Source of the DNA: Geosiphon pyriformis
Taxonomy: Eukaryota > Glomeromycota > Glomeromycetes > Archaeosporales > Geosiphonaceae
NCBI GenBank assembly: GCA_016748015.1
Contig: JAAOMT010000770.1
Location: forward strand, 40,231-104,230
DNA: 64,000 nt
Direction: 5' to 3'
Shown: positions 6,168 through 50,788 of the stretch, in pieces
Layout: each line of letters starts with the position of its first letter
Position numbering within the stretch: the first letter of the stretch is position 1
Program-made: the position numbers and the translations under genes
Notes under the pieces: model-generated
The model's input: the letters and a program-made list of their open reading frames with translations, nothing else
What the model was told of the DNA's origin: nothing
The model's database searches: none

Positions 6168-8294
6168 TTAACTCATCCTTTTTATTTGCATAAACAAATA
6201 TTTTGTTTGAAAAAGTTGGTATGTTTTTAGCTTGAGAATACAATCGGAGGAACTTTAGTCCATTTGCCATATACATCCCCTAGAAAAAAGTCATTAAACA
6301 CTTTTTATTTTATAATATTATGAATGCTAAATAATAATTAATATCTAGTGGGTTCGTCATGATTCCTGAATGGATTTCCCATTCTTGCAAAACCACAAAT
6401 AATTTGCGAAAATTGATTGGCCACAGATTTTCCATTTCCATATTCTTAATTGAATTGAATTGGGAAATTGTGCAGGCCAATTTGAATGATCAAAATTTCG
6501 TCATTTTTGGCAATATGAATCAGAGTATTCTCATGTTAAAACATAAATAATAGAAAAATTAAATTTATGGGTAAATTTATAATTTTTTCCAAAAGTTTTA
6601 TATAATAAATTTTGGACATATAATAGATTTAAAATATTTTTTTACTGATTTGTTTTTTTTAAAGTTCAATAAATTTTTATTTTTAATAACTAAAAATTCA
6701 TTTTGTTTTTTAAAAATTTATTGAACCAATTGTTGTAAACTTAAATTCTTATTTGTAAATACTTGAATGGTCATTTTTATGAAATGATTTGTGATTATTT
6801 TTTGTTTTTTATTTGTTTTGTAAATATTGAGTTGATTTTTTTATTATATCTTATTGTTTTGTAAAATATTTTTGTTTTTCTGATATTCATTTTGAACAAT
6901 TGTATTATCTCTTTATATAATGTATTATAAAAGAACCAATCATTAGTTACTTGAGTTTAGTCCATTCACATGACTTGATTATATGAATGACTTTGATGAA
7001 AAAATCTCAAGTTTGTTTCTGTAACAATCTTGTTATCCCACTTCTATTTAATCATCACGATTTGACATTGCTTACATAATTATTATCCTTAACTTATTAG
7101 ATGTATGACTTGCTCTTTATGATTATCGAAAAAATGATTACTATTTGATAAAACGCAAATTTTGAGAGAATAATTTTTAATCCGTAATATTATAATACTC
7201 ATTCGCTTATTCATATTCACAAAGAAGAGTATATCTTACAATCTAATAACTCGTCCTAGATCAGAAGCCAGGTTTTGAGTTCGCTTTTATATTCCGTTTC
7301 AAGCATCAAACTCGGCTTACCCCGTTTTTCAAACTTTTATTGAAATTGAGGGTTGTCATATCTTTTCAAGGAAAATCTTGTTCAGTTTTAGATGGTCGCT
7401 GATCAGAGGAGCTCTTGAATATCTACTTCACATGGACAAACACGAACTTTGAGAATGGAAACTAAACTCCAAATAATCATTAGTCGAAAAGCAATATCAA
7501 GTAATGGGGATACACATCGCATGCAGATGTTATGGATTCACAATTTTCCGAACAATTCTCCTTGATCGTCAAAACTTCAAAGATGTTCCGTACCAATACT
7601 TTCAACAAAATGTTATCATATATCAATTTTGAAGATCTAGATTGGAGGTGCCAATTCTTAAGACCGAAAATTCTCTTTTGTAAAGTTTACCCTTTTATAA
7701 CGAATGGAACAATCGTTTAAGACGATTTTATAATTAGCGATATTGAAGATCTTTACTCTCAAGACGAAATATTCTGATTTCCGGAGAATCTCTTTCTCAC
7801 ACTTTTAACACACAAACAAAAGAAATTTCATCGTCGATGAACCCTATCTCTACAAGCAATGATATAACTCATAATAACCAAGATATTACTCTATTGGTTA
7901 TCAGTCTTTTTTATTAAGGCAAGAGTAAAGAGCTCAATTGGTGGCCTCGTTCACAAACCCTAATTTCCAATTACAAAACCTCCGTTGATATTTATATATT
8001 TACCGAGTTTTTAACTTTCTCACTTAGTTTAACTTTTTGTGTTCTGCTCGACGGAGACTGAGGGTTTTTTTTATATTTAAATCTAGGTTTGATACCTTGA
8101 CTCACAAAAACCGTCTTCAATACCCCATCTCATTTTTCCGCGTAAAAATTTAGCCATTTATTCTTTTGCTATTTTAAAGAAATACCCTTTTGACCAGGAG
8201 TCAAAATTAAAAGGTTAATCAAAAAGTCGAAGCATTTTCTCATAATTTTCTTAGGCCTCTCTCATTAGCGGCCAAGGTATCTTTGGTTGTTAAA
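6168..8294. other. Spacer upstream of receptor gene 1
   Basis: 6168-7200 is AT-rich with no gene. 7200-8290 is less AT-biased and should contain the promoter and 5' UTR of the receptor gene. Short frames (for example 7532-7720) have no true ATG or recognisable motif and were not called. Confidence 0.4.
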
Positions 8295-9742
8295 ATGAGC
8301 AACCCAGCTTTATATTTAGGTTATCCGGAGTGGTATGATCCAAAATCGTTAAAAGAGGCTGTTCAGGGCATGATTGCAATTTGCTCGTTTAGTACATTGA
8401 GTAATTTGGTTGTGATGGGAACTTTCATTTGGATATACTTTCACAAATATACCAATAAAACTACCGGGCGATTGGTGCTGAATTTGTTGTTTGCGGATTG
8501 GATTCAAAGTATTGGTTATATGATGAGCTATTATTGGATAAGTCAGGATGGTAATATCAAAAGTTATCCTAATTGTAATATTCAAGGGATGCTTATAAAC
8601 ATTGGTGGAGTAGCTTCTGGTAAGTAAGGATAGAAATACTATTGAACAAGAAAGCAGCTTGTGTGAGAATATTTCTGAAAGATGATCTAAAATATTAACT
8701 TTGAATTCCAGGGTGTTGGGCGTTTACATTATGCCTTCAAACTTATTTGATGGTCGTGCACTCTTATGATCCCAAATGGCTCTTTACTGCTTCAATGATG
8801 ATAATTTGGCCATTCAATATCATTTTATCAACAATTGGGACATTGATTCAAAACCCTCACATACCATTCTACAGCTCTGCTGGTGGTGCCTGGTGCTGGA
8901 TTAATGCAGAATACAGCACCTATCGACTCATATTTCATTATGGGATAATCACTGTTTTAGCTGTCTCAATTTACTTGTTATATGGAAGGTTGATTTACAT
9001 TATTTACCGTCGCCAAGCTACGATAAGAACGGAAAAGAACCAGACATTAAAAAAGAATGGCATAAAACTTTTATTATACCCTGGAGCTCACTGTTTGATC
9101 ACCTTACCATTGGCTTTGCGTAAGTCTAACCTCTTTTGATTTTTTTTATTAGAAGAAAATTCCTAATTGGTAAACTTTTTTTTTTATAGACCGATTAATG
9201 GAAAGTGGCGAAACACAGACATCATTTTCATTGTGAGTGACTCAATAAATTTTTCATGTTTAATTATTTCGATTTAGGAAAATTGTCATTGACTCTATAA
9301 TTTCTTTATTCACATAAATTCCAGCCTTATCATAGCTGGTTGCATAGCGGCTTCATCTGGACTCGTAAACAGTTTAATTTACGGAATGACGCGTAGTATG
9401 CCATCCACTAAACCAATATTTGAAATCGTTCCAAAATTCAACATTCGTGTCCGAAATGTTCAGATTGCTCCATCAGCCATTCGTACCGTTTCCATCTCCA
9501 GCAACGCGAGTGACATGAAACCACTAAATATGGCTATTAACATGCCGCCCCATACTGCCGAAAACCAGTCTCACCAACAACGAATGCAATATAGGGGTTC
9601 AAATATTGGAGGAGGAGTACACGGGCATAAAGGACCCGTTACGACAGATTTGATGGCGAACAGGGAAACATTGTTTGAGGGCCTAACCTATTATGAGAAT
9701 ATCGAAAGTATGGAACCGTTGCGTCCACGTGTTGAATATTAA
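8295..9742 (+). CDS. GPCR-like seven-helix receptor 1
   Basis: Four exons (8295-8619, 8712-9119, 9190-9232, 9325-9742) join to 1194 nt, 397 residues, ending at TAA. All introns are GT-AG. The protein has seven hydrophobic segments. TM1 is near residues 28-53. TM2 carries LVLNLLFADWIQSIGYMM. TM3 is at the GCWAFTLCLQTYLMVV junction. An extracellular GAWCWI loop motif lies before TM5, and a short basic loop (YRRQ) follows TM5. TM6 has YPG and PLAL, and TM7 has NSLIYG in place of the rhodopsin NPxxY. These are features of the fungal/amoebal cAMP-receptor-like and Git3/Gpr1 type of receptor, which couples to heterotrimeric G proteins at the plasma membrane. The C-terminal tail (~110 residues) is cytoplasmic, Met/Pro/His-rich and the longest of the three paralogues. 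The ligand is unknown. Confidence 0.88.
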
Positions 9743-19400: not shown

Positions 19401-20536
19401 GATAATTATTATGAAAATAAAGTAAATATTCTACTAACAAATTATCTTATCGTTTCCATAGTCAAAGATAATGGACTTGTTTATTATCAAAATTTCTAAT
19501 TATTTACCTCATAACCAATCTTGTGGGACCTTGTGCAGATTTGAATCGTTTCGAAAAATTAATTTTCAAGGATTTTCTCAAAATTCCTTTTTATTTTTCT
19601 GTAAGATTCTCAAATGATTTTTCCAATAGTGATACCGAATTCATAAGCCGGTTTATATCCGAGAAGTGTATCACGCTTGATATTAAAAAGTTTTTTTTTC
19701 CCAAAAACGATGTCAACGAACAAAAACTTAAAGATACGAAACAAGAGAAGCTTTGCAAAAGGATTTTGTTCAGTGTATCAATTGTTTCAAAGAATTAGTA
19801 ATGTCAACCTTCAATCATTTCTAAAGCAACTCTTTCGAAAAGCAAAAGAAACAGGGGCCGTAAGTCAATATTTTAAAAATTTAAAAATTTTATAATAATA
19901 ACCTTTCATGGGGTTAAAGCTTCTGTCGTTCAGTTTAATAAAAAAAAATAATTACACCGAATATGTTAGGTTCATACCCCTCCCCCTATAAAATAATTGT
20001 GATCCACTTCACCATTTTCCAAAATTAGAATCGATTTCTTTCATTCCAGAGTGAAGGCTGTCTAATCAAAATTGCTTGAGTAATGTTTTTGAGAGAGATT
20101 AGGAAAAAAACTTAATAAATTCCATATCCGGAGAAACCTTTTCTAAGGGGAAAAATCTCTATAATTGCATTTTTGTCAAATAAATCTTTCTCGAGATCCA
20201 TATTCCATTTGAAACTATATATATATATATATAGAGAGCTTTGCCAGTCACTGGTTAACGTTTCAAAAAAGTAAATAGGACTCCGTATTAATTTTAATGC
20301 CATAAACCAATTTTTCAACGCCCTGCACTTGTTTCTTCTTTTCAAATAATACCTTTGAATAGGGGAACGATTGACGGTTAACATTAAAACTTTAATTTCT
20401 CGTATTGATATTTGAAAATTTGTTTTTGTGCTTTTTTTGAAAAAATAAAAACACCTTTGAAAAAGTATTTAGAGCTAGGGTGTATATAAAAAATAACTTC
20501 ATAAAATCTCCCTTCAAAAATCCTATTTTTTTTTTA
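16499..20536. other. Spacer between lipase relic and receptor gene 2
   Basis: Mostly AT-rich. It contains an imperfect (ATCAAT)n run near 17873-17896 and (GGAAAA)n at about 19219-19240. Short frames at 18363, 18697 and 19523-19895 were inspected. The last shows basic, protein-like stretches (LFRKAKETGAVSQYFKNL) but no splice-consistent gene could be built. Confidence 0.4.
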
Positions 20537-21851
20537 ATGGAAGTAATGGGTTATTATGTGTCCGAGCATGATTTAGTCCAAGGTCAAGTAGCCGTTTGGA
20601 TATTTGGTACACTTAGTAATCTCGTCACTACTGGAATACTGTTTTGGATTTGTGCCAAAACATCAACAAATAAGATGATAGGTCGTCTTGTTGTAAATTT
20701 ATTAATTTCGGATTGGGTACAAAGTTTTGGCTTTGTAATGAGCTCTAATTGGATTTTTCAAGGTGGTATTTATGAAGGGTTTTTTTGTACTATACAAGGA
20801 ATGTTTTTGAATCTCGGTGACGTGGCTTCTGGTGAGCTATTTCAACTTTTCTCCATAAAAAAAAACTATTATTCTTTGATATTTCATCAGGCTGAGAATA
20901 AAATATCTCTTTTTGTTTTGTTTTGTTTTGTTTTTTCATTTTTTGTCAGGATGCTGGGCAATGTCAATATGTATTCATACATATCTTTTAGTCGTACATT
21001 CTTATGAATCAAAGTATCATCTAGTGATATCGATGGCAGTAATTTGGCCAGCAAATTTACTCATGATATTCATTGGACACGCTATACAAACGAAAAAAAA
21101 TGGTTCATTTTGGGCACCAGCGGGAGGAGCTTGGTGTTGGATATCAATCAACTATCCTTTATATCGTATACTCTTTCATTATGGTATAATTGTATTACTG
21201 GCAGTTTTCATGGTTGGTATGTACGCAGTAATGTATATGTCATTATGGCGCCGACAAAATACTACCCAGCGGGAAGCTTCAAGACAAGTTCTCCAGAGAA
21301 CTAGCAAGAAACTTGTATACTACCCAGTAGCATATGTTATTCTTGTTTTCCCTTTGGCTTTTCGTAAGTGTGATCAATCCAATTTAAATTTTTAATTTAA
21401 CAATAATTTTTTATTATCTGACCAATATTTCTTTATTCTCTATATCTATATATGGTAGAACGTTTTTTGGCCTTTGGCGGTATACAAATGCCATTCCCAT
21501 TGTAAGTATTCTAATTACTAAATTTTATTGATCTATAATTTTTTTTTCTCATTATAAATCCTTTCAATTCAACAACTTTTACCCAATATTTTTATATTTT
21601 ATAGTCTCGTGGCTGCTGGATGTATATTCGCGTTATCTGGAATAGTTAACAGTATAATATACGGGTTTACAAGACACGTGGTAACAATCACGCCAAACAT
21701 TTCATTTCGACAAGTACAAAAACGACCAATAAGCACTTCAAATGGCATCGATTCTTCAAAACCAATGAACACTTTTACTATTAGTGTGACAACACAGACT
21801 GAAACTCGACTTTCACATTGGAATCCGAATTTAAAAGAAGTAGAAATTTAG
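20537..21851 (+). CDS. GPCR-like seven-helix receptor 2
   Basis: Exons 20537-20831, 20950-21363, 21459-21501 and 21605-21851 join to 999 nt, 332 residues. Introns are GT-AG at the same positions and phases as in receptor 1; exon 3 has the same 43 nt and exon 2 is 414 versus 408 nt. The protein shows LVVNLLISDWVQSFGFVM in TM2, GCWAMSICIHTYLLVVHSYE in TM3, GGAWCWI in the extracellular loop, LWRRQ after TM5, YYP and PLAF in TM6 and NSIIYGF in TM7. The start is the first ATG after an in-frame AT-rich leader; a second ATG three codons later is also possible. The cytoplasmic tail is short (about 60 residues) and Ser/Thr-rich. It is inferred to be a G-protein-coupled plasma-membrane receptor of unknown ligand. 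Confidence 0.87.
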
Positions 21852-25618: not shown

Positions 25619-26929
25619 TTAAGATTTAAAAACTGATAATCTTACATTAGAATCAATTTGAATCTTCACACATTCATGTTTACATTTCATTTCTTTATCG
25701 GAATTCTCCGCGTCATTTTTGGAGACTGATTGTTGTGTATTCGATTTTGTTTCTCTAGCGTCAATTTTTGAAACATTTTTAATGCTGACTGTGGTCTTGG
25801 CTTTTGAATCTTCATGAGTATTACTGCTGTTTAGACGATTTCTTATTCTTGGGACTATTTCGCTTACAGATTTGATTGATACTATATTTCTTGTGAAACC
25901 ATAAATTATGCTGTTCACCGTGCCAGCCGAAGCGAGAAGACAGCCGCTCACAATAGTGCTGATTTATAGAATTTTACAAAGAAAAAATTAATGATATGCT
26001 TTTTGTAAGCTAAACTAAAAAAAAACTCACATTGAATGATGCTTACTATGAAAATGGGAAATCTGGACCTTTAGCAATAACAGTGAAACGTTCTATGAAT
26101 AAAAAAATATTAAATTTCAATCTCAAAAGTACAAATCTTAAAAAATAGTTTAGATACTCACGTAAGGCTAATGGAAATACGATTATAATGTAAACACCAG
26201 GATAATAAATCAATTTTCGTCTAACACGTTGTAAAACTTTTTTTGTATTATCCATTCTCATTACTCCCTGACGACGATATACTTTGATGAACATGAGCGA
26301 ATACAAAACTATCATGAAGACTGCCAGGAATGCAATGATTGCATAATGAAAAAGAATTCGATATGAAGCATAACTTTCACTGATCCAGCACCAAGAGCCT
26401 GTCGCGGAACCATAAAATGGAACCCCATTTTTCTGTAATGCCAATCCTATGAGGCCAAAAGCAAGACTTATCGACCAAATTAAAGCGGCACAAACTCGAA
26501 CATACCATTCAGGTTCAAATGAATGAACAACTACCATATATGTATGTAAACAAATAGCAGTTGCCCAAAATCCTGAAAAAAAAAAATTTGAACTCTGATA
26601 TAACTTATATTTCAAAAAGATTAAAAATCATGCGTTTCAAATTATAAATTTTTTTCACCTGAACCTATATCACCCAGATTAATCAAAATCCCTTGAGTCT
26701 CACAATATGAGTCTGATATCAGGTGCCCATGTGCCCACCATCTATATGTCATCATAAATCCAATGCTTTGAATCCAGTCTGAGAATAGCAAATTCATCAC
26801 TAGACGCGTTACCGTCTTGTTTGAAGTAGTTTGTCTCCAAATCCAGAGAAGCATTCCAGTCGTAGCGAAATTACTTATGGTACTAAAGATGCACATTGCA
26901 ATCATGCCTTTTTGTTCTTTTGTTGACAT
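25619..26929 (-). CDS. GPCR-like seven-helix receptor 3
   Basis: Exons in transcript order are 26929-26659, 26572-26162, 26092-26047 and 25958-25619. They total 1068 nt, 355 residues, with GT-AG introns at the same positions and phases as in receptors 1 and 2. Motifs match the paralogues: LVMNLLFSDWIQSIGFMM (TM2), GFWATAICLHTYMVVVHSFE (TM3; the Cys of the GCW seen in the other two is Phe here), GSWCWI in the extracellular loop, VYRRQ after TM5, YYPG and PLAL in TM6, and NSIIYGFTR in TM7. The ~100-residue tail is Lys/Ser/Asn-rich with several possible phosphorylation sites, and is unrelated in sequence to the other two tails. The gene is oriented opposite to its paralogues and divergent from the kelch gene, about 1 kb apart. 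Inferred G-protein-coupled receptor; ligand unknown. Confidence 0.88.
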
Positions 26930-27957
26930 TTTATATTATGAGGAAATACAAATTATTATTATTTTGTTTTGAAGTTTTAATCTAATGCCCTTTATTATCT
27001 GGTTTTTAGGAAATTCTGAAAATTAAAAAATTACAAGGATTAAAAGCATAACATGAAATTCTTTGTGAAAAAAAAAAAAACTGATAATTTCTTGTTAAAA
27101 TGATTCAAGTTAGGGAATATATACGCGCGAAAAAGATTGAAAATTCCTTTTTTGCTTTGTTACACTGTTGATCAACATACGGCGTATAAATAGATAAAAA
27201 AATTTATTTATACATTTACTAATATAAAGAAACGTGGCTGAGAAAGCTGTTCAACGATATGATTAAAAAAAAAAAAACATTTCCAATTAAATATTAGGTT
27301 TGAAAAACTGAGACAGTTTTCTTTAATCTGACCCCTAGCACCTGAAAAACATCATGAAGTCAAAATCTTTAAAGAGCACAAGGGATGGAAGACAGGTAAC
27401 TTGAAAATTTATTCTTAACAAAATTTTTTTTTAGATTTGGTCAACGTCATGAAATAATGAAAATCTGTTTATCTGTTTCCCCCAGCTGTTAATTAAGTCG
27501 GATAAATTAGAATCCTTGCCAAGATTTTACCTCATTCATCACCATTGATACAACTCATTCATTTTTATTTAAACTAAAATCTAATTAAAATTTCTCATAT
27601 CTCGTTCGCAAATTAAAAAGTTACTTTCATAACTTCAACCACATCGAATTTCAAAAAAAATTGAAATTTGAAGTTATGATTGTTTGTCTTATTATAAACC
27701 AAAAAAAATTATGACTGTTTCGCAAGATATTTCCCCGAATAGCAATTTCACGTCATCTTCATTTCATAATTTTAAATAATATAGTTTGAGTAATAATTGC
27801 GGATAAACTATGACTAATTCTAATACATGTGCGCCTACATGTACATGTACATTAATTAAAGTGCATTTCGTTTTCCCACTTGCAGTTTTAATAAAATATT
27901 AATATAAAGGACCTTTTTGAAAGAATATGGTTTGAATTTTTGAATACTATCATAACC
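26930..27957. promoter_or_regulatory. Shared divergent upstream region
   Basis: A 1-kb region between the divergent starts of receptor 3 and the kelch gene, presumably holding both promoters. A 14-bp perfect palindrome, TACATGTACATGTA (27836-27849), lies about 110 bp before the kelch ATG. It is the only obvious candidate protein-binding site. No function can be assigned. Confidence 0.35.
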
Positions 27958-29504
27958 ATGCCTTCACTTTTAAATTCACTAGTAATAGCATTTTTATCAT
28001 TTTCATCAATAGACCTTGTCTCAAGTCAAGCTCCGGGCACAAGATTTTCCCATTGTCTATTTACATATAATGACACATTATACATGTTTGGAGGAACAGT
28101 CGACTGGGGTGCCCAAGCAGCTACAAATTATTTTCATTCAGCGCAACTACCATTTAGTACTTTATCAACGCCATGGAAACCAGAAAATATAAACAATGCC
28201 GTTCCGCTACAGGATCCAGCATGTGTAGTTGAACCTTCTTTGGGATATGCTTTGGTTATTGGGGGTGGCAATGAATTAAAACTTCAAAATCCGGGGATTC
28301 AGATTTATAATTTCAAAACAAAGGAGTGGAATGAATCTGAATTAAAAAACACTTATTTTCCAACCTTTCCATCAGAATTAACAAAGTCTATATATCGACC
28401 CGCAGCTGTCCTTTTAGCACCAAAGTTAGTTTTTATGTATTTGGGCGGTTTCTCAGAAACTGATAGAGTACCAGGAAGTTACTTATTGGATCTTGGACAT
28501 ACTCCTTGGAAATGGACTGCTATCAGCCGCAATGTATTGTAAAAAAATTTTTGTAAAAATTGAAATTAATTATCATAGTTAACTTGGTGAACTTTTTATA
28601 GAGTACTCAGATAATTATGACTAGCCCCGGTCTAGCAAGCTCAAAAGGAAATGCCTTTATTTTTGGTGGTTTTTATCACCTGAATAATAGTTGGCCACCA
28701 TCAAATGATTCCTATATCTACAGTCAAATCTATGGATATCTACCTACTCCTTATACTATTCCAACCACTATCGCTGATGCTGTTGTTGGTGTTTTGAATG
28801 ATAAATTAATGGTTATTGTTTTGGAGACTGGGTCAAAAATTGAAAACCAACAAATGTTTGTGCTTCCTCTGGATTTAAGTACTATGAAATTGGGTATCCA
28901 AACAATTCCTACGGGTGTCCCTGCAAATACAAATAATACACTAATGAGAAATCGTGCTGGTTATGTTCAGCTCCCTGGGTCTGACACTATTGTGGTGAGC
29001 GATTTTTGAATTTTCATAATCATATGTCATTGTTTCTTTTGATTGCTATATTTATATTTAAATTTATAATTTAAATTCTAAAATCAGATATATGGAGGGG
29101 TTACTTCATGGCCAATGGGCAAAACATCAAGTAGTATGATAGCTTACAATATGACAACGGGAGCATGGACTACGAATGTAAATATTGTGAAAAATATTCC
29201 CTCAGATCAATACCAATTAGCAAAAGTAAACGGCTTGGATCTTGAAAATGGCTCAATATCCGGAACTACTAAATCATATGATGACCCAAAATCTTCGAAC
29301 TTATCAAAAGACCCAACCGACACAAAAAAAAAGGATAATCTTCCAACTAGTACTATAATAGGAATCTTGATTGGGGTGATCGGAGGATTGGGCCTATTGG
29401 GAGGTATATCTGCCTATATTTTCTTTTCATTAAAAAAGAAAAGATTACCAGCTGAAAAAATGGAGTCTATGCATGTGAACAATGAGGTATTTACTGGTCT
29501 ATAA
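27958..29504 (+). CDS. Secreted/membrane-anchored kelch-repeat protein
   Basis: Exons 27958-28533, 28602-28994 and 29088-29504 join in phase 0 to 1386 nt, 461 residues. The N-terminus is a signal peptide (MPSLLNSLVIAFLSF, cleavage likely near the SSQAPG junction). The body has kelch-type repeats typical of a beta-propeller: the first strand motif RFSHCLFTYNDTLYMFGG, then ALVIGGGNEL, LVFMYLGGFSE, NAFIFGGFYH and IYGGVTSW. Near the C-terminus a low-complexity Ser/Asp/Lys linker precedes a single membrane segment (IIGILIGVIGGLGLLGG...) and a short basic cytoplasmic tail (KKKRLPAEK). The topology is an extracellular propeller on one TM anchor. Its partner is unknown; propellers of this type usually bind proteins or sugars. 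Confidence 0.85.
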
Positions 29505-38314: not shown

Positions 38315-41300
38315 ATGAGAAAAATTTATCTCTTTGATTTTGAAAATAGATATAATTCAGCTGCAAATGAAATCTCATTAAGTGGCATTAAGGAAATCAT
38401 TGATCGCAAAGTCGAGGGGTCCGATGTGCTGGCTTTAGTGACTTTCTTGGGTATTTTCACAATACTTCAGGATTTCAGCAATGAGCTTTTATAAAATTTT
38501 ATAACAGATATATTATTTGTGTAGATCCTGCTATTGCCCAAAGATGGGTGAATGAAACGGATCTACCCAAATATGCCGTTTCTCTTTGGAGAAATTACTA
38601 TCAAAGGAAATGTTCCGATCCTGAGCGTCAAATTCAAACTTACATTGAAGTAATGCGTCTTACCAGTTTGATCATACTTAGAATCTTAATTATTTAATAA
38701 AATCCTCTAATATTAGGATTTTGAAATGGAGATGAATGATGATGAAATGGAGATACACGATGAAGGAATCGACAATGTGTTTATAAACCACAAATTTCCC
38801 TCTCAAACTCAAGATGGGTATGTATGCAAACATTCAGTTATCAAAACAATATTGGATATTAATTAAAATTGTGATTTTCAAAAAATCGTTCGCAGAGCCT
38901 TTCTCCATCGTTCTATACCGAGGTCAAATCATTTACCTTTAACCTTTTCCAAGAAAGCTGAGAATGAAACTATTACGACTCATCCACCCACGTTTGAGCA
39001 TGGCTTACAAATAAGGAAAAATTTTAACACGATGAGCCCAAAAAGTAAACCCAAAGGACCCTTACCAGAAGCAGACGATTTTTCAAAGGTCATTCTCGAA
39101 CTTAATTCATCAGAAAATAATACCCAGGATTATAAAAATTTTCTTTCAGAGTTCATTTCTCAAAAAGAATCTCAGACAGATATCCCAGAAAAAAAAATTT
39201 CAAGCTGCGTAAACCATATTGAACCTGAAACAAAATTTGGACAAAACATGGAAGGGGAAAATGCATTCGATAATCAAATATTAATTAAAGAAATTGAGCA
39301 AACGAGCAAACTTCCACAGCAATGCCTAAAGTCACAAATAAAACTATCCACATCTCAGAATATCTCTGAGGACATTTTAGATATCATTAACAAAAATTCT
39401 AACAGCTTACAGGAAATGGAAAGGGTAGATGAAACTGAAAGAATTACATCAGAATTTTTGAACGAAACCTTGCAGACGGATCTTTACAATCAACCTTATG
39501 AGAAAAAAGGATGCTCAAAAATTGATTCCTTCGATTCCATCAAAAATCCTAACCATCCAATAAATCAAGAAATAGAACGAGACGAACATATAGGTGAATT
39601 TAAAAAAAGATCACAAGAATCTATAATGCATCTCCCTGAAAAGAATTCGAATTTCATGGAAGTCGAGACTCGACGCTCCTTGAAATCTCAACAGCCTGAA
39701 ATCAATGCACAGATATATTTGGAATTAGAAAAAAAATACAGTGACACAGAAATATCTCGTTCTGCAGCACTATCTGAGCAAAAGAAACATTTTTTGGAAG
39801 ACCAGATTGAACGCTCCCTGAAATTTAAAAAGCCGCATGCAAATAGGAATAAAACGGAAGGGGAAACTTTGATCCCTGAAAAAAATTTGCTTCCGATCAC
39901 AAATTATGAGTGTCTAAAAAAAAAAGTTACATCAGGAAATATGGTCGATGATTACGAATATTTTGCATCTCCAAAGCAAAGATTTTCATCAGAACCTCAA
40001 GAAGATTTGTTGTAAGTATTAGTTGCATTATTGTGAACCTCGTTTTCAAATTTTGTTTTTTTAGCATAAAGATTTTTAAGAAATAAAACACACAGTGAAT
40101 GGAGTGGATCCCTTTGGAAATGTGAAATCATTCAGTTCGTTGCTACAATAACTATAAGACCATTGGTGGGACGTTGCCCTGATCCTTTTTTTCTGTAAGT
40201 TATTGCTTTCTCTTTAAAATAGTAAACTTGATAGTTTCTAAAAAAATAAGTATTTAAATATTAACCAAATCAAACATTACATAACATAACTTAGGAATCT
40301 ATGTCGAGAGAAAGAGGAACTCCATCTTTCAAATGTCATACCTTTGACATATGCAGAAGTTAGTTTTTTAAAGGGGGTAGAGGCATATGACTTATCTTTC
40401 TTTTCAATGGAAGCAATTGGTGGTAATATGAGCTCGGCAAGACGTTTAAAAGCCGAAGCTGATTCTCTCAAATGGAATGAAATGGTATATATATTTTGAT
40501 TGAAGTTTAAAATGTGGAATTTTCCTTCTCATTTTTTTGAAATCCCCTTGATTCAACTCTAGGTTGGCATGATTTTCCTTGATGAGGAAGGCCAAAAATA
40601 TTGCTGGTTTGCATTTTACACTACGGCTCGGACATGTGATTTTTTTGCCTTACCAAAGCTTCGTGCACCTTTTTTTCTTATTTCAAGAAAGATTACAAAC
40701 CCGAGACCAAGACATTTGGAAATAAACTCACCCGAATTACTTCAAATTTTGTCAACCAATTTATTTGACGTTAAAATCTGTATGGCTGCTCTTTTTAGTC
40801 TCGAGACTAGGAGGGGAGAGCAGTTACGTTTAATTTGTGAGAGTCGACCCGCTTTTGTAGTTTTTGGGGGAATTGAGCATTCTGAAGTTGAAGATATTAT
40901 TTGTGCTGCCAAAGGATTTGGGGGTCATTATTTTAAAGAAGCAGAAAATCAAAATATCACGGCAATATTTGTATGAAATCAAAATTTTTTATCTTGAAAA
41001 TCTATCTGATTGTGATAATTAAGCAAAATTTTTATATAATTTACCAGATTTTCCTGCCATTAATTAAACAAGTTTTCTTTATGGACAAATTCATTGCTTG
41101 GAAAAAAAAAGTCTGATTGTCATTTTTACATATTTGGATGGGAAATTGGCGAAAAGCACGAATATATAATTGAAGAAGTTTTTAAACCAGGTAAGACATT
41201 TGGATGCTGTTAGGAATCTCGTTTTCTTAAATAGTATTAATTCTTAATTAAAAATCTAAACTGAAAAAGGTGGTAAGGTCACATTTACCACTAATCTTGT

Positions 41301-41886
41301 ACAGCTTGAACCAAATGTGGTCCAAAAAGTGAATCAAATACTTATGCAGGTTGGCGCCTTATTATTTTGTTCATCTACAATTTATTTTTTGGTTAAAAAT
41401 ATTTATTTTTTCTAGCGCAACTACTTTCGTCCGAAGGAGAATTGGGAAATTGTGCTACATCCTCAAGTCCAAAATAGGTTGGAAAGAATTACTACAAAAT
41501 GGCTGCTAAGCAATCCTGAGTGAGTTTTTCAAATTTTCAAAATTGACGAGGATTTCATGGCTTATTTATGTCTATTTTAGAACTAAAAGGTGTCCTTATT
41601 TCGATATTTGGGATCTTAAAGATTTTGGTAAACTGAAAATTCTTGAAGATATTGATGTGCTTCCGGTGAGTTTAAATCCCTTTTAAATTCTTGTTGAGTA
41701 GTAGGTTTTATTAATTCTAGTCTTTACATGAGTTATCAGTGTGAGAGAGGGGGAAGTTGTCAAGACCTTTACAAGACAATGCTAAGGCAACATACCATTT
41801 ACCACGCGAAATACAGACATTTTATTGTACTAGCACGTGCCGAGGAAATCGAAAGATGTCCTCCACTTCCTATTCCTGGGGTATGA
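38315..41886 (+). CDS. Chromodomain-like / SPOC-like chromatin protein (Chp1/TASOR-like architecture)
   Basis: Twelve exons: 38315-38450, 38525-38649, 38717-38817, 38896-40011, 40081-40194, 40295-40484, 40563-40970, 41048 (or 41073)-41190, 41270-41349, 41416-41519, 41581-41665 and 41740-41886; about 907-915 residues. Residues ~25-75 (IKEIIDRKVEG ... LALV ... RWVNETDLP, helix YAVSLWRNYY) align without gaps to a chromodomain through the conserved Trp. However, two of three methyl-lysine cage aromatics are replaced. A long charged, disordered linker follows (~120-490). Next comes a SPOC-like block from EWSGSLWK (WxG start) through ARRLKAEADSLKWNEMVGMI to the LISRKI strand. The C-terminal region (VFGGIEHSEVEDII...GGHYF...ITAIF, then FYIFGWEIG) may be a BRCT- or PIN-like fold. 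This order is that of Chp1 and the SPOC/PIN part of TASOR, nuclear scaffolds of heterochromatin silencing. Function is inferred. Confidence 0.5.
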
Positions 41887-41955
41887 TGTATGAACTTGCA
41901 TATTTTGAAGCTTTTGAAAGTTCATAATATTTACTATTTTCAAATAAAGATCGAA

Positions 41956-42547
41956 CTACTGGATATCCAACAATTTGAAGACCAATACTTGTTTCATGAT
42001 TGAATTTCTGAATGATTCAATGATCATTAAAAGGAAATTTAAATTACGAGTTCGATCCGTGATGCCATTATTCACTGAAGGATACATTTTATTTAAAGTA
42101 GTAAAAATAATTTGTCCATAGATAATGGGTTCTGTTAATATATGAAAAAATAATTCAACTAATGCAGCAGACCAATAAGTTAAATAAAAGCTGACTTTCA
42201 AAGCACGTGTAAAAAAATTTAGGAGAATTGAAAGTTTTGGTCTTTGAACTAAATCCTTGCTTTTTTCATTGGAGTTTTCGAGAAAGTTAGTTTTAATATT
42301 TTGGAACCCAAATTTTCTTAATTAATATTTTAAAAGAAAAAACTGACAGGTTATTGAATAAATATCTCCAAGCGTCCAGAATAACAATCGCTGAAGAGCT
42401 GTATATAGCTGTTTTATTTAAATTGGTCATATAATTATTAGAAATGGAGCCTCTAATAAAAAGATTCTTTGAAATAAGCAAGTCATGGTACTTTTCATTG
42501 TCTTTACAATAAATCCATATAATAGTGGAAAGATTAGAGTTTAATAT
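41956..42547 (-). CDS. Hypothetical membrane-like protein, model unresolved
   Basis: A minus-strand frame ending at 41956 reads VQRPKLSILLNFFTRALKVS, then a hydrophobic part (FYLTYWSAALVELFFHIL), then PIIYGQIIFTTLNKMYPSV and an amphipathic tail. It extends upstream to about 42316. A second open stretch in another frame (42348-42547: YHDLLISKNLFIRGSISNNY ... ILDAWRYLFNNL) is joined only if a 31-bp intron (GTCAGT...TTAAG) or a frameshift is accepted. No in-frame ATG was found at its 5' end. The stop lies 70 bp from that of the chromatin gene (tail-to-tail). The family is not recognised. Confidence 0.35.
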
Positions 42548-48894: not shown

Positions 48895-50788
48895 CTACAT
48901 TGGGATACCATCCAAAAATCCTTCGTTGCCTTCTCTCGTGACAACAACTTGAACGTTTCCTAAAATCCGACTCTTGAAGCCTCCTTCACAATAGGCGAAA
49001 TAGAACTCCCATTTTCTTTTAAATATTTCCACATCTTTTGATGTCATATGTGGCCAATCTTTATGTAATGCTGGTATAATGTCCTCGTCAAAATTATTCA
49101 AGAATTGTTCTCGCCATAGACGAAGCGTGCGCGCATAGTGTGGACCAATGTTTTCAATGTTATCGACAATCAACTTCCCTCGAGAGCCTTTTTGAATGGC
49201 ACTTACAAGAGATGTGACGGTTGGACAGTGACCACCTATGTAAGAATTATGTGAAACAATTTTTCATATTAAGATTCATGTCAATTGTTGGAGGAAGTGG
49301 GAACTTTGCAAAAATGTTCAATCCCCTAGGCCCATGAAGAAAACCTACCCGGAAATATATATTTCCTTATAAAATCTACCTCACGACAATAACGATCGTA
49401 TCTTGTCTCGGGCATAGTAATGACTTGGAAGACACCAATGCCACCTTGTTCTTTGAGAAATTTATCACAACATTCAAAATATGTTGCGAGGTATTGACGT
49501 CCCACCGCTTCGATCATTTCAATACTAACTATTTTATCATATTGATGATCCGCCGGCAGACTTCGATAGTCGCATAACAAAACCGTAATTCGATCAGAGA
49601 AGCCGGCAAGAGAAATCCGTTCTTCGGCGAGTTTTTTTTGTTCGATTGATAACGTGAGAGTTGTGACACGACATCCGGTTGTTCTCACCGCCTTGTGATG
49701 AAATAGAAAGAGTTTTAACATGAGTAGAATGACAAAGAGATAGCGAAAGATCTACAAAAAATTTCATATCGCACTTCAATGGCAAAAGAGCCCCAACCAC
49801 TGCCGATTTCCAACACATGATCATCTCTTGTAATTTTGGCCTTTGCGATTATTTTTCGTAATTTGTTATACTGTGCCTGTTCGAGGGTTTCATTTTCACT
49901 TGTGAAAAAAGCACTGGAATAGGTCATATCCTCACTGAGAAAACTAGCAAACATTGCGTTTGAAATATCATAATGTGCCGATATATTATTGATCGCATTT
50001 GAAATACTGTTGACAAATTGCGTGTTCATCAGATAATTAAGGATATTGAATATATATGATGGTCCAGTGCTTAGGTCATCAAGATATGACCGATTGGCGA
50101 CAAAGATCTGAAAATTTAGAGCAAATTTTAATCAAAATTATCACATTATCGTCAAACCTGTGTGTGATGTCACTCCTTACTTTAATTAAATTGAGCAGAT
50201 TGCCACAAGTCACGTCTCCCAGCATATATGCCTCTGCAAATCCCTATGGGAAATTACCAATATTATCAGATATTTGCCTTAGTTCTCCTATAATACAATC
50301 TTATTAGAAATTCCACGTACCAAATCCCCTAGCAAAAGCAATCGAACCCAAAAAGAATCATTTATTATATTAATTTGCGCACGATCTTTTGACTCTTTTT
50401 TACCGAATTCATAAATACGGTCTTTTGTCAAAACGCGAAGATGGCCAAAGTTGATCTTTGCCATTAAACCAAGCAATGTATTCTGCGCTGAATATTGTTA
50501 GTTCCAAAGGTAAATAAAATGGTGATGACAAACAAAAATTGTTGAAGAAACACAACGAATTTATGAAAAGGAAAATCCTGTGACTTTTCGTCCAGAACCT
50601 TTCGATTGTTGAGATTTGAATTGATTGAACAAGTGGAAATGAAAATGAGCATTCATACCGAAATCAAGCAAAACTGGCCATGATTTTCCAATAAGGATTT
50701 CTTTCCAATGTTGAAAGTAGAAATCAATTGTGGCGATAACTTTGCTTGTGGTTCGAGCAATGGGTTTTTTTTCATCCATATAAGACAT
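48895..50788 (-). CDS. Cyclopropane-fatty-acyl-phospholipid synthase
   Basis: Six exons (50788-50659, 50487-50321, 50243-50181, 50107-49775, 49691-49349, 49235-48895) give exactly 1377 nt, 458 residues. An N-terminal CFA-synthase domain (INFGHLRVLTKD ... LLLLGDLGFAEAYMLGDVT) is followed by the SAM-dependent methyltransferase domain. This has AHYDISNAMFASFLSEDMTY, motif I VLEIGSGWGSFAIE, LTLSIEQKKLAEERI, CDYRSLP, YDKIVSIEMIEAVG, RKYIFPGGHCPT and the late conserved YFAYCEGGF. The enzyme transfers a methylene from S-adenosylmethionine to the double bond of unsaturated acyl chains of membrane phospholipids. No transmembrane pair is visible, which argues against a sphingolipid C9-methyltransferase. 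The start at 50788 follows an in-frame stop just upstream. It is convergent with the SCOC-like gene. Confidence 0.92.

Follow-up and report, generated by a model that had tools for sequence, protein, structure and literature searches.

Among the described systems closest to the gene reported here are Chp1 of the RITS complex in Schizosaccharomyces pombe and TASOR of the HUSH complex. RITS of S. pombe is treated in a review of fungal RNAi (PMC7763443, passages on RITS), and Chp1 and TASOR have SPOC and DomII/PIN in common (PMC7532188, passages comparing the two). According to one study, four Mucor species lack Chp1 and Tas3 and conserve Stc1, Clr4 and CLRC subunits (PMC12863538). In Rhizophagus irregularis, HRR1 and STC1 homologs were found, and RNAi-coupled chromatin modification was suggested (PMC8647823, passages concerned). 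Another review names both Chp1 and Rhizophagus, and the passages that do so leave the two unconnected (PMC13136243). Among the matches listed from the open-access literature, none reported Chp1 in Glomeromycotina. For many fungi other than fission yeast, it is still an open question whether heterochromatin is directed by small RNAs.

Here we describe a gene of Geosiphon pyriformis, gene A, which we consider likely to encode a divergent Chp1-type scaffold. It lies in a 64-kb window, by which we mean the whole stretch of 64,000 nucleotides that was analysed.

Structure of gene A

A first-pass annotation, made from the letters of the window, had proposed a spliced gene from 38315 to 41886 encoding a Chp1/TASOR-like heterochromatin scaffold. 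Joining exons by their splice signals confirmed a spliced gene from 38315 and initially gave 12 exons, 902 residues and an end at 41886. That end proved to be wrong. Comparison with two paralogs, B and C (described below), indicated that the stop at 41886 arises from read-through of a donor at 41881, and that the true last exon, 41950-42003, encodes the C-terminus GIELLDIQQFEDQYLF, which can be aligned with both paralogs. With this exon and an AAG acceptor at 41073, the product has 918 residues. The features of the gene are as follows.

38315-42003 (+): gene A, whole model of 13 exons, with GT donors, AG acceptors and closed phases, and with 190-, 408- and 80-nt exons as in paralog B
38315-38450, 38525-38649, 38717-38817, 38896-40011 (+): exons 1-4
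40096-40194, 40295-40484, 40563-40970 (+): exons 5-7
41048 (or 41073)-41190 (+): exon 8
41102-41110 (+): run of nine A's (A9), site of a frame slip in the homology-supported reading (exon 8 of 143 versus 142 nt; alignment shuffle test)
41270-41349, 41416-41519, 41581-41665, 41740-41880, 41950-42003 (+): exons 9-13
38384-38613 (+): chromodomain-like segment, split by the intron 38451-38524 (homology to the N-terminus of paralog B; weak profile alignment)
38614-40011 (+): linker that is presumably disordered, running from late exon 2 through exon 4 (no Pfam family; disorder judged by eye)
40096-40694 (+): SPOC-like segment with a W-x-G-x-L start, exons 5 and 6 and start of exon 7 (conserved in A, B and C; assigned by its position ahead of DomII-PIN)
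40695-41190 (+): segment resembling Chp1 domain II, last part of exon 7 plus exon 8 (PF23340 matched in the paralogs only, under the cut-off)
41270-42003 (+): Chp1/TASOR-type PIN-like domain, exons 9-13 (weak Pfam PIN matches; three-paralog profile leading to 3tix)

Because exon lengths of 190, 408 and 80 nt are identical in A and paralog B, and because the C-terminal block is shared with two paralogs, the exon structure of the C-terminal part is beyond chance. Exon 8 can be read in two ways. With the CAG acceptor (exon from 41048), its score against paralog B was matched by 1 of 2000 shuffles and that against paralog C by 96 of 2000; with the AAG acceptor, which preserves the frame (exon from 41073), the corresponding counts were 1190 and 1253 of 2000. 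The CAG-acceptor exon is 143 nt long (41048-41190), as compared with 142 nt for its counterpart in B. The CAG-acceptor reading is the better supported one and needs a frame slip inside the A9 run, which may be an assembly error or real decay.

Within the 64-kb window, neither Rfam at the gathering threshold nor a tRNA scan returned anything. Other protein-coding features were observed there. Three genes within 19 kb (8211-9742, +; 20441-21395, +; 26046-26627, -) appeared by eye to encode related seven-helix receptors; a Pfam scan of a single exon per gene gave a match to PF05462 Dicty_CAR (slime mold cAMP receptor; E 5.5e-7) for the third gene and not for the other two. The gene at 27895-29504 (+) encodes a propeller protein of the Kelch/attractin type (lowest Pfam E 2.9e-11, under the cut-off of that model) with, judged by eye, a likely membrane anchor close to its C-terminus. 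In the gene at 49326-50131 (-), one exon matched PF02353, a cyclopropane fatty-acid synthase-type methyltransferase (E 4.2e-25).

Paralogs in the same genome

We searched the genome itself, 124.7 Mb in 406 contigs, with the 410 C-terminal residues of A. At E up to 1 there were ten matches, eight of them to exons of A itself and two elsewhere. Paralog C, at C307, matched at 26% over query residues 2-394 of 410 (E 1.2e-12), and paralog B, at C284, at 28% (E 2.4e-6). Paralog C is one open frame of 730 residues. The model of paralog B has 12 exons and 680 residues in the same layout as A, with one uncertain donor ahead of the linker and one intron that starts with GC. Searching back with the SPOC-PIN part of paralog C returned C itself and B (E 0.048), and A was not recovered at E up to 1. 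This AT-rich genome thus carries at least three genes of a Chp1-like family; the family may be larger, as the genome search works exon by exon.

Membership in the Chp1/TASOR PIN superfamily

Paralog C matched PF21484 Chp1-like_PIN at E 2.6e-8, over the Pfam cut-off; a genome-wide search with this model, at E up to 1, matched C alone. Paralog B matched the same model under the cut-off (E 0.019). When a profile of all three paralogs was compared with 177,635 PDB sequences, the sole significant match was 3tix_B, S. pombe Chp1 (E 1.2e-7); one other match was listed, at E 1.1. Paralog C alone reached 3tix at E 0.034. Paralog B alone gave chance matches only, as did a profile of A plus B without C, which found no Chp1 chain in the PDB and so missed 3tix.

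Among 24,736 Pfam models, the PIN segment of A alone matched two, both under the cut-off: PIN_TASOR (E 0.013; residues 9-146 of 153 against model positions 10-135 of 141) and Chp1-like_PIN (E 0.081). None of ten controls, comprising nine shuffles and the reversed segment, matched either PIN model; an unrelated family came up for one shuffle (E 0.19). Of the three members of alignment A1 compared with Pfam, one matched PIN_TASOR (0.06) and one TASOR_alpha-beta (0.082). Longer or different queries returned nothing: the whole A protein, in the model without the last exon, in Pfam or PDB at E up to 10; the full C-terminal block including the last exon, in Pfam; and paralog C, in NCBIfam. Sequence comparison thus shows A to be homologous to paralog C and, by way of C and the profile of all three paralogs, supports placing A in the Chp1/TASOR PIN superfamily; the PIN segment of A itself adds weaker support. 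The C-terminus had been called 'PIN- or BRCT-like' in the first-pass annotation; the PIN half of that call stands, and the Pfam scans returned no BRCT model.

In PIN nucleases, the first catalytic aspartate is located near the GG motif region. In the paralog alignment, the ten residues after the GG motif contain neither aspartate nor glutamate in A, B or C. The PIN part of A is thus probably a scaffold rather than a nuclease.

SPOC-like and domain II-like segments

Domain II was detected in the paralogs, with PF23340 Chp1_domII matching C at E 0.01 and B at E 0.032, both under the cut-off; the Pfam scans gave no such match in the A protein. A DomII in this family is suggested by these matches. 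Further upstream, exon 5 of A (40096) opens with E-WSG, and the SPOC-like block marked earlier by its WSG motif is indeed present and conserved in all three paralogs, but its similarity to SPOC was not significant. The hhalign score of the block against two SPOC sequences was matched by 16 of 200 shuffles. A PDB search with the block yielded no SPOC chain, and its matches, to EAF7 and Cas10, were chance ones. The sole PF07744 match in the genome at E 0.001 was another locus (C307 near 872 kb). SPEN/PHF3-type SPOC proteins (PF07744) resemble A in the W-x-G start of the block, but similarity to them falls short of significance. A SPOC fold in A is plausible, given the position of the block ahead of DomII-PIN.

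N-terminal chromodomain-like segment and linker

A and B have homologous N-terminal segments (blastp E 6e-5, pairwise run). A genome search with the 121-residue N-terminus of A found only itself at E up to 1. A joint A-B profile was aligned by hhalign with a chromodomain profile built from nine seeds, six of them entered by hand. The alignment spanned 55 columns and scored 16.4, as compared with a maximum of 11.8 in 300 column shuffles, at an hhalign probability of only 3.8%. Among 250 control windows from ten other long open frames, those of paralog C and of the A linker included, three reached the A-B score; all three came from one Argonaute locus and aligned over stretches of 8-9 columns. 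Taken singly, A scored 13.6 over 22 columns and B 13.6 over 50 columns.

Other comparisons were less favorable. A profile of three own-genome chromodomains only was not significant for A-B, with 33 of 150 shuffles scoring as high. Single-sequence chromodomain HMM scores were matched by 25 of 5000 shuffles for A and 64 of 5000 for B, and the best A alignment in that test fell outside the expected segment; the B segment aligned there, weakly, along the entire profile. Pfam Chromo had five matches in the genome at E 0.001, none of them at A or B. The chromodomain-like N-terminus proposed in the first-pass annotation therefore held as a likeness, which no column shuffle equalled, but Pfam Chromo and the own-genome profile did not bear it out. 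A chromodomain in A, and in B, is suggested and plausible.

The positions of the methyl-lysine (H3K9me) cage were assigned by eye on an uncertain alignment, using the aromatic positions of the chromodomain cage. Read in this way, A has F at the central position only, and B has Y and F; A seems to be missing most of the cage aromatics. In paralog C, no chromodomain was seen in Pfam or by eye.

The linker of A is ~415 residues long and includes a 382-aa open frame (38867-40012); a Pfam scan of its long exon (E up to 0.01) returned nothing. A disordered linker of ~370 residues had been proposed in the first-pass annotation. The long linker is confirmed, and its disorder was judged by eye.

Silencing machinery in the genome

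Searches for silencing components gave 33 Piwi matches, grouped by hand into ~12 Argonaute loci, together with two RdRP loci, two Stc1 matches and one Arb1 match. Stc1 and Arb1 couple Argonaute to chromatin in fission yeast. Both have a fungal range, so their matches mark the genome as fungus-like. One locus (C398) combines a chromodomain with Pre-SET and SET, the make-up of Clr4, and by its predicted domains is a Clr4-type methyltransferase gene.

Two further observations were made. At C132, 37.0-40.7 kb, two Argonaute copies lie ~2.7 kb apart with match scores that are identical exon by exon; the pair may have arisen by tandem duplication not long ago, or may be an artefact of the assembly. 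At C238 near 539 kb (L026), a chromodomain exon is followed by a long open frame that resembles Hda2/3-type subunits by eye and for which Pfam, with E up to 0.01, gave no family.

A full-length 18S rRNA copy was also found (L037 801-2617, -; C320 near 1,045,500). It carries C-to-T or G-to-A changes in four conserved words, and its CpG observed/expected ratio is 0.54. It looks like a decayed rDNA copy, possibly mutated through methylation or RIP. The AML2 arbuscular-mycorrhizal primer site occurs once in the genome at up to two mismatches, with one mismatch, in a mutated-looking rDNA copy.

Comparison with Chp1 and TASOR

Profile searches of the separate segments thus led to Chp1/TASOR for the PIN domain, gave nothing significant for SPOC and were weak for the chromodomain. 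A shares with S. pombe Chp1 (RITS; 3tix, PF21484, PF23340) the order chromodomain-like segment, linker, SPOC-like segment, DomII-like segment and PIN. All three paralogs also have the GG at the PIN start, the K-x-R-x-F motif and the C-terminal G-[IVL]-[ED] of Chp1. The family differs from Chp1 in being very divergent, in the apparent loss of most of the cage in the chromodomain-like segment of A, and in having three paralogs here, one of them without a chromodomain. With TASOR (HUSH; PF24630, PF23314), A shares a related PIN, and the family resembles it in having SPOC-like plus DomII/PIN-like segments within one protein (PMC7532188, passages comparing TASOR and Chp1). Unlike TASOR, A and B have a chromodomain-like segment in the same chain, and Pfam at E up to 10 reported no pseudo-PARP DUF3715 in A, B or C. 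TASOR membership of A was set aside on this last result. Because DUF3715 has no match in the three proteins and two of the three have a chromodomain-like N-terminus, the predicted layout of A fits Chp1 better than TASOR.

A TASOR/HUSH-like scaffold would silence repeats without small RNA, its SPOC-DomII-PIN hub recruiting H3K9 methylation on transcription and a chromodomain being supplied by the same chain or by a partner. The slightly better match of A's PIN to PIN_TASOR (0.013) than to Chp1-like_PIN (0.081) is in its favor, as is the lack, in paralog C as in TASOR, of a visible chromodomain; in Mucor lusitanicus, RNAi and heterochromatin are said to be independent (a study cited in PMC12863538, passage concerned). 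We nevertheless regard this reading as improbable, given the missing DUF3715, the match of paralog C to Chp1-like_PIN over its cut-off, and the Stc1 and Arb1 matches in the genome. It is likewise unlikely, if somewhat less so, that A is a paralog in decay, with loss of its chromodomain cage and frame under way, and that B and C retain the function. The A9 frame slip that the better-supported reading of exon 8 requires, and the cage aromatics that by eye are apparently lost, would agree with decay, but the exons are open and in phase outside that run, the AAG acceptor (41073) gives a complete open model of 918 residues, and single-base runs are frequent sites of assembly error. Hardly probable, in our view, is a PIN/SPOC-fold nuclear protein of another pathway, such as RNA processing or turnover, with no role in heterochromatin. 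Function does not follow from a remote PIN match, and sequence scores leave SPOC and the chromodomain unconfirmed; against this reading, the only PIN models matched are those of Chp1 and TASOR, and the N-terminus of paralog B aligns weakly along the whole chromodomain profile.

We therefore return to a divergent Chp1-type scaffold, for which a RITS-type role is the most likely and best reading, its chromatin-reading and small-RNA steps being those we infer. Of the scaffold first proposed, superfamily membership of the PIN domain is borne out, SPOC and the chromodomain are plausible, and the small-RNA link is drawn from the silencing machinery encoded in the genome. In this role, the SPOC-DomII-PIN block of A would act as a platform; its counterpart in fission yeast holds Tas3 and, via Tas3, Argonaute. 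A would presumably have a Tas3-like partner of its own. Anchoring of the complex to chromatin would fall to the chromodomain-like module at the N-terminus, which the long linker connects to the SPOC-DomII-PIN block. A RITS-type apparatus built on A would recruit to repeats both Argonaute loaded with siRNA and the methyltransferase of Clr4 type.

A further idea, which we hold tentatively and think rather less likely than not to be true, is that RITS has diversified in this genome: of the Chp1 paralogs, two would carry a chromodomain and the third, which lacks one, would be TASOR-like, and each might work with different Argonautes of the enlarged set. If so, a state between RITS and HUSH would survive in this genome, whereas Mucor species reportedly lack Chp1. 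The Chp1-like family is of interest because the Mucor species are reported to be without both Chp1 and Tas3. Standing beside Argonautes, RdRP, Stc1, Arb1 and a Clr4-type enzyme, it would provide the scaffold that has been missing, and the coupling of small RNAs to heterochromatin would become testable.
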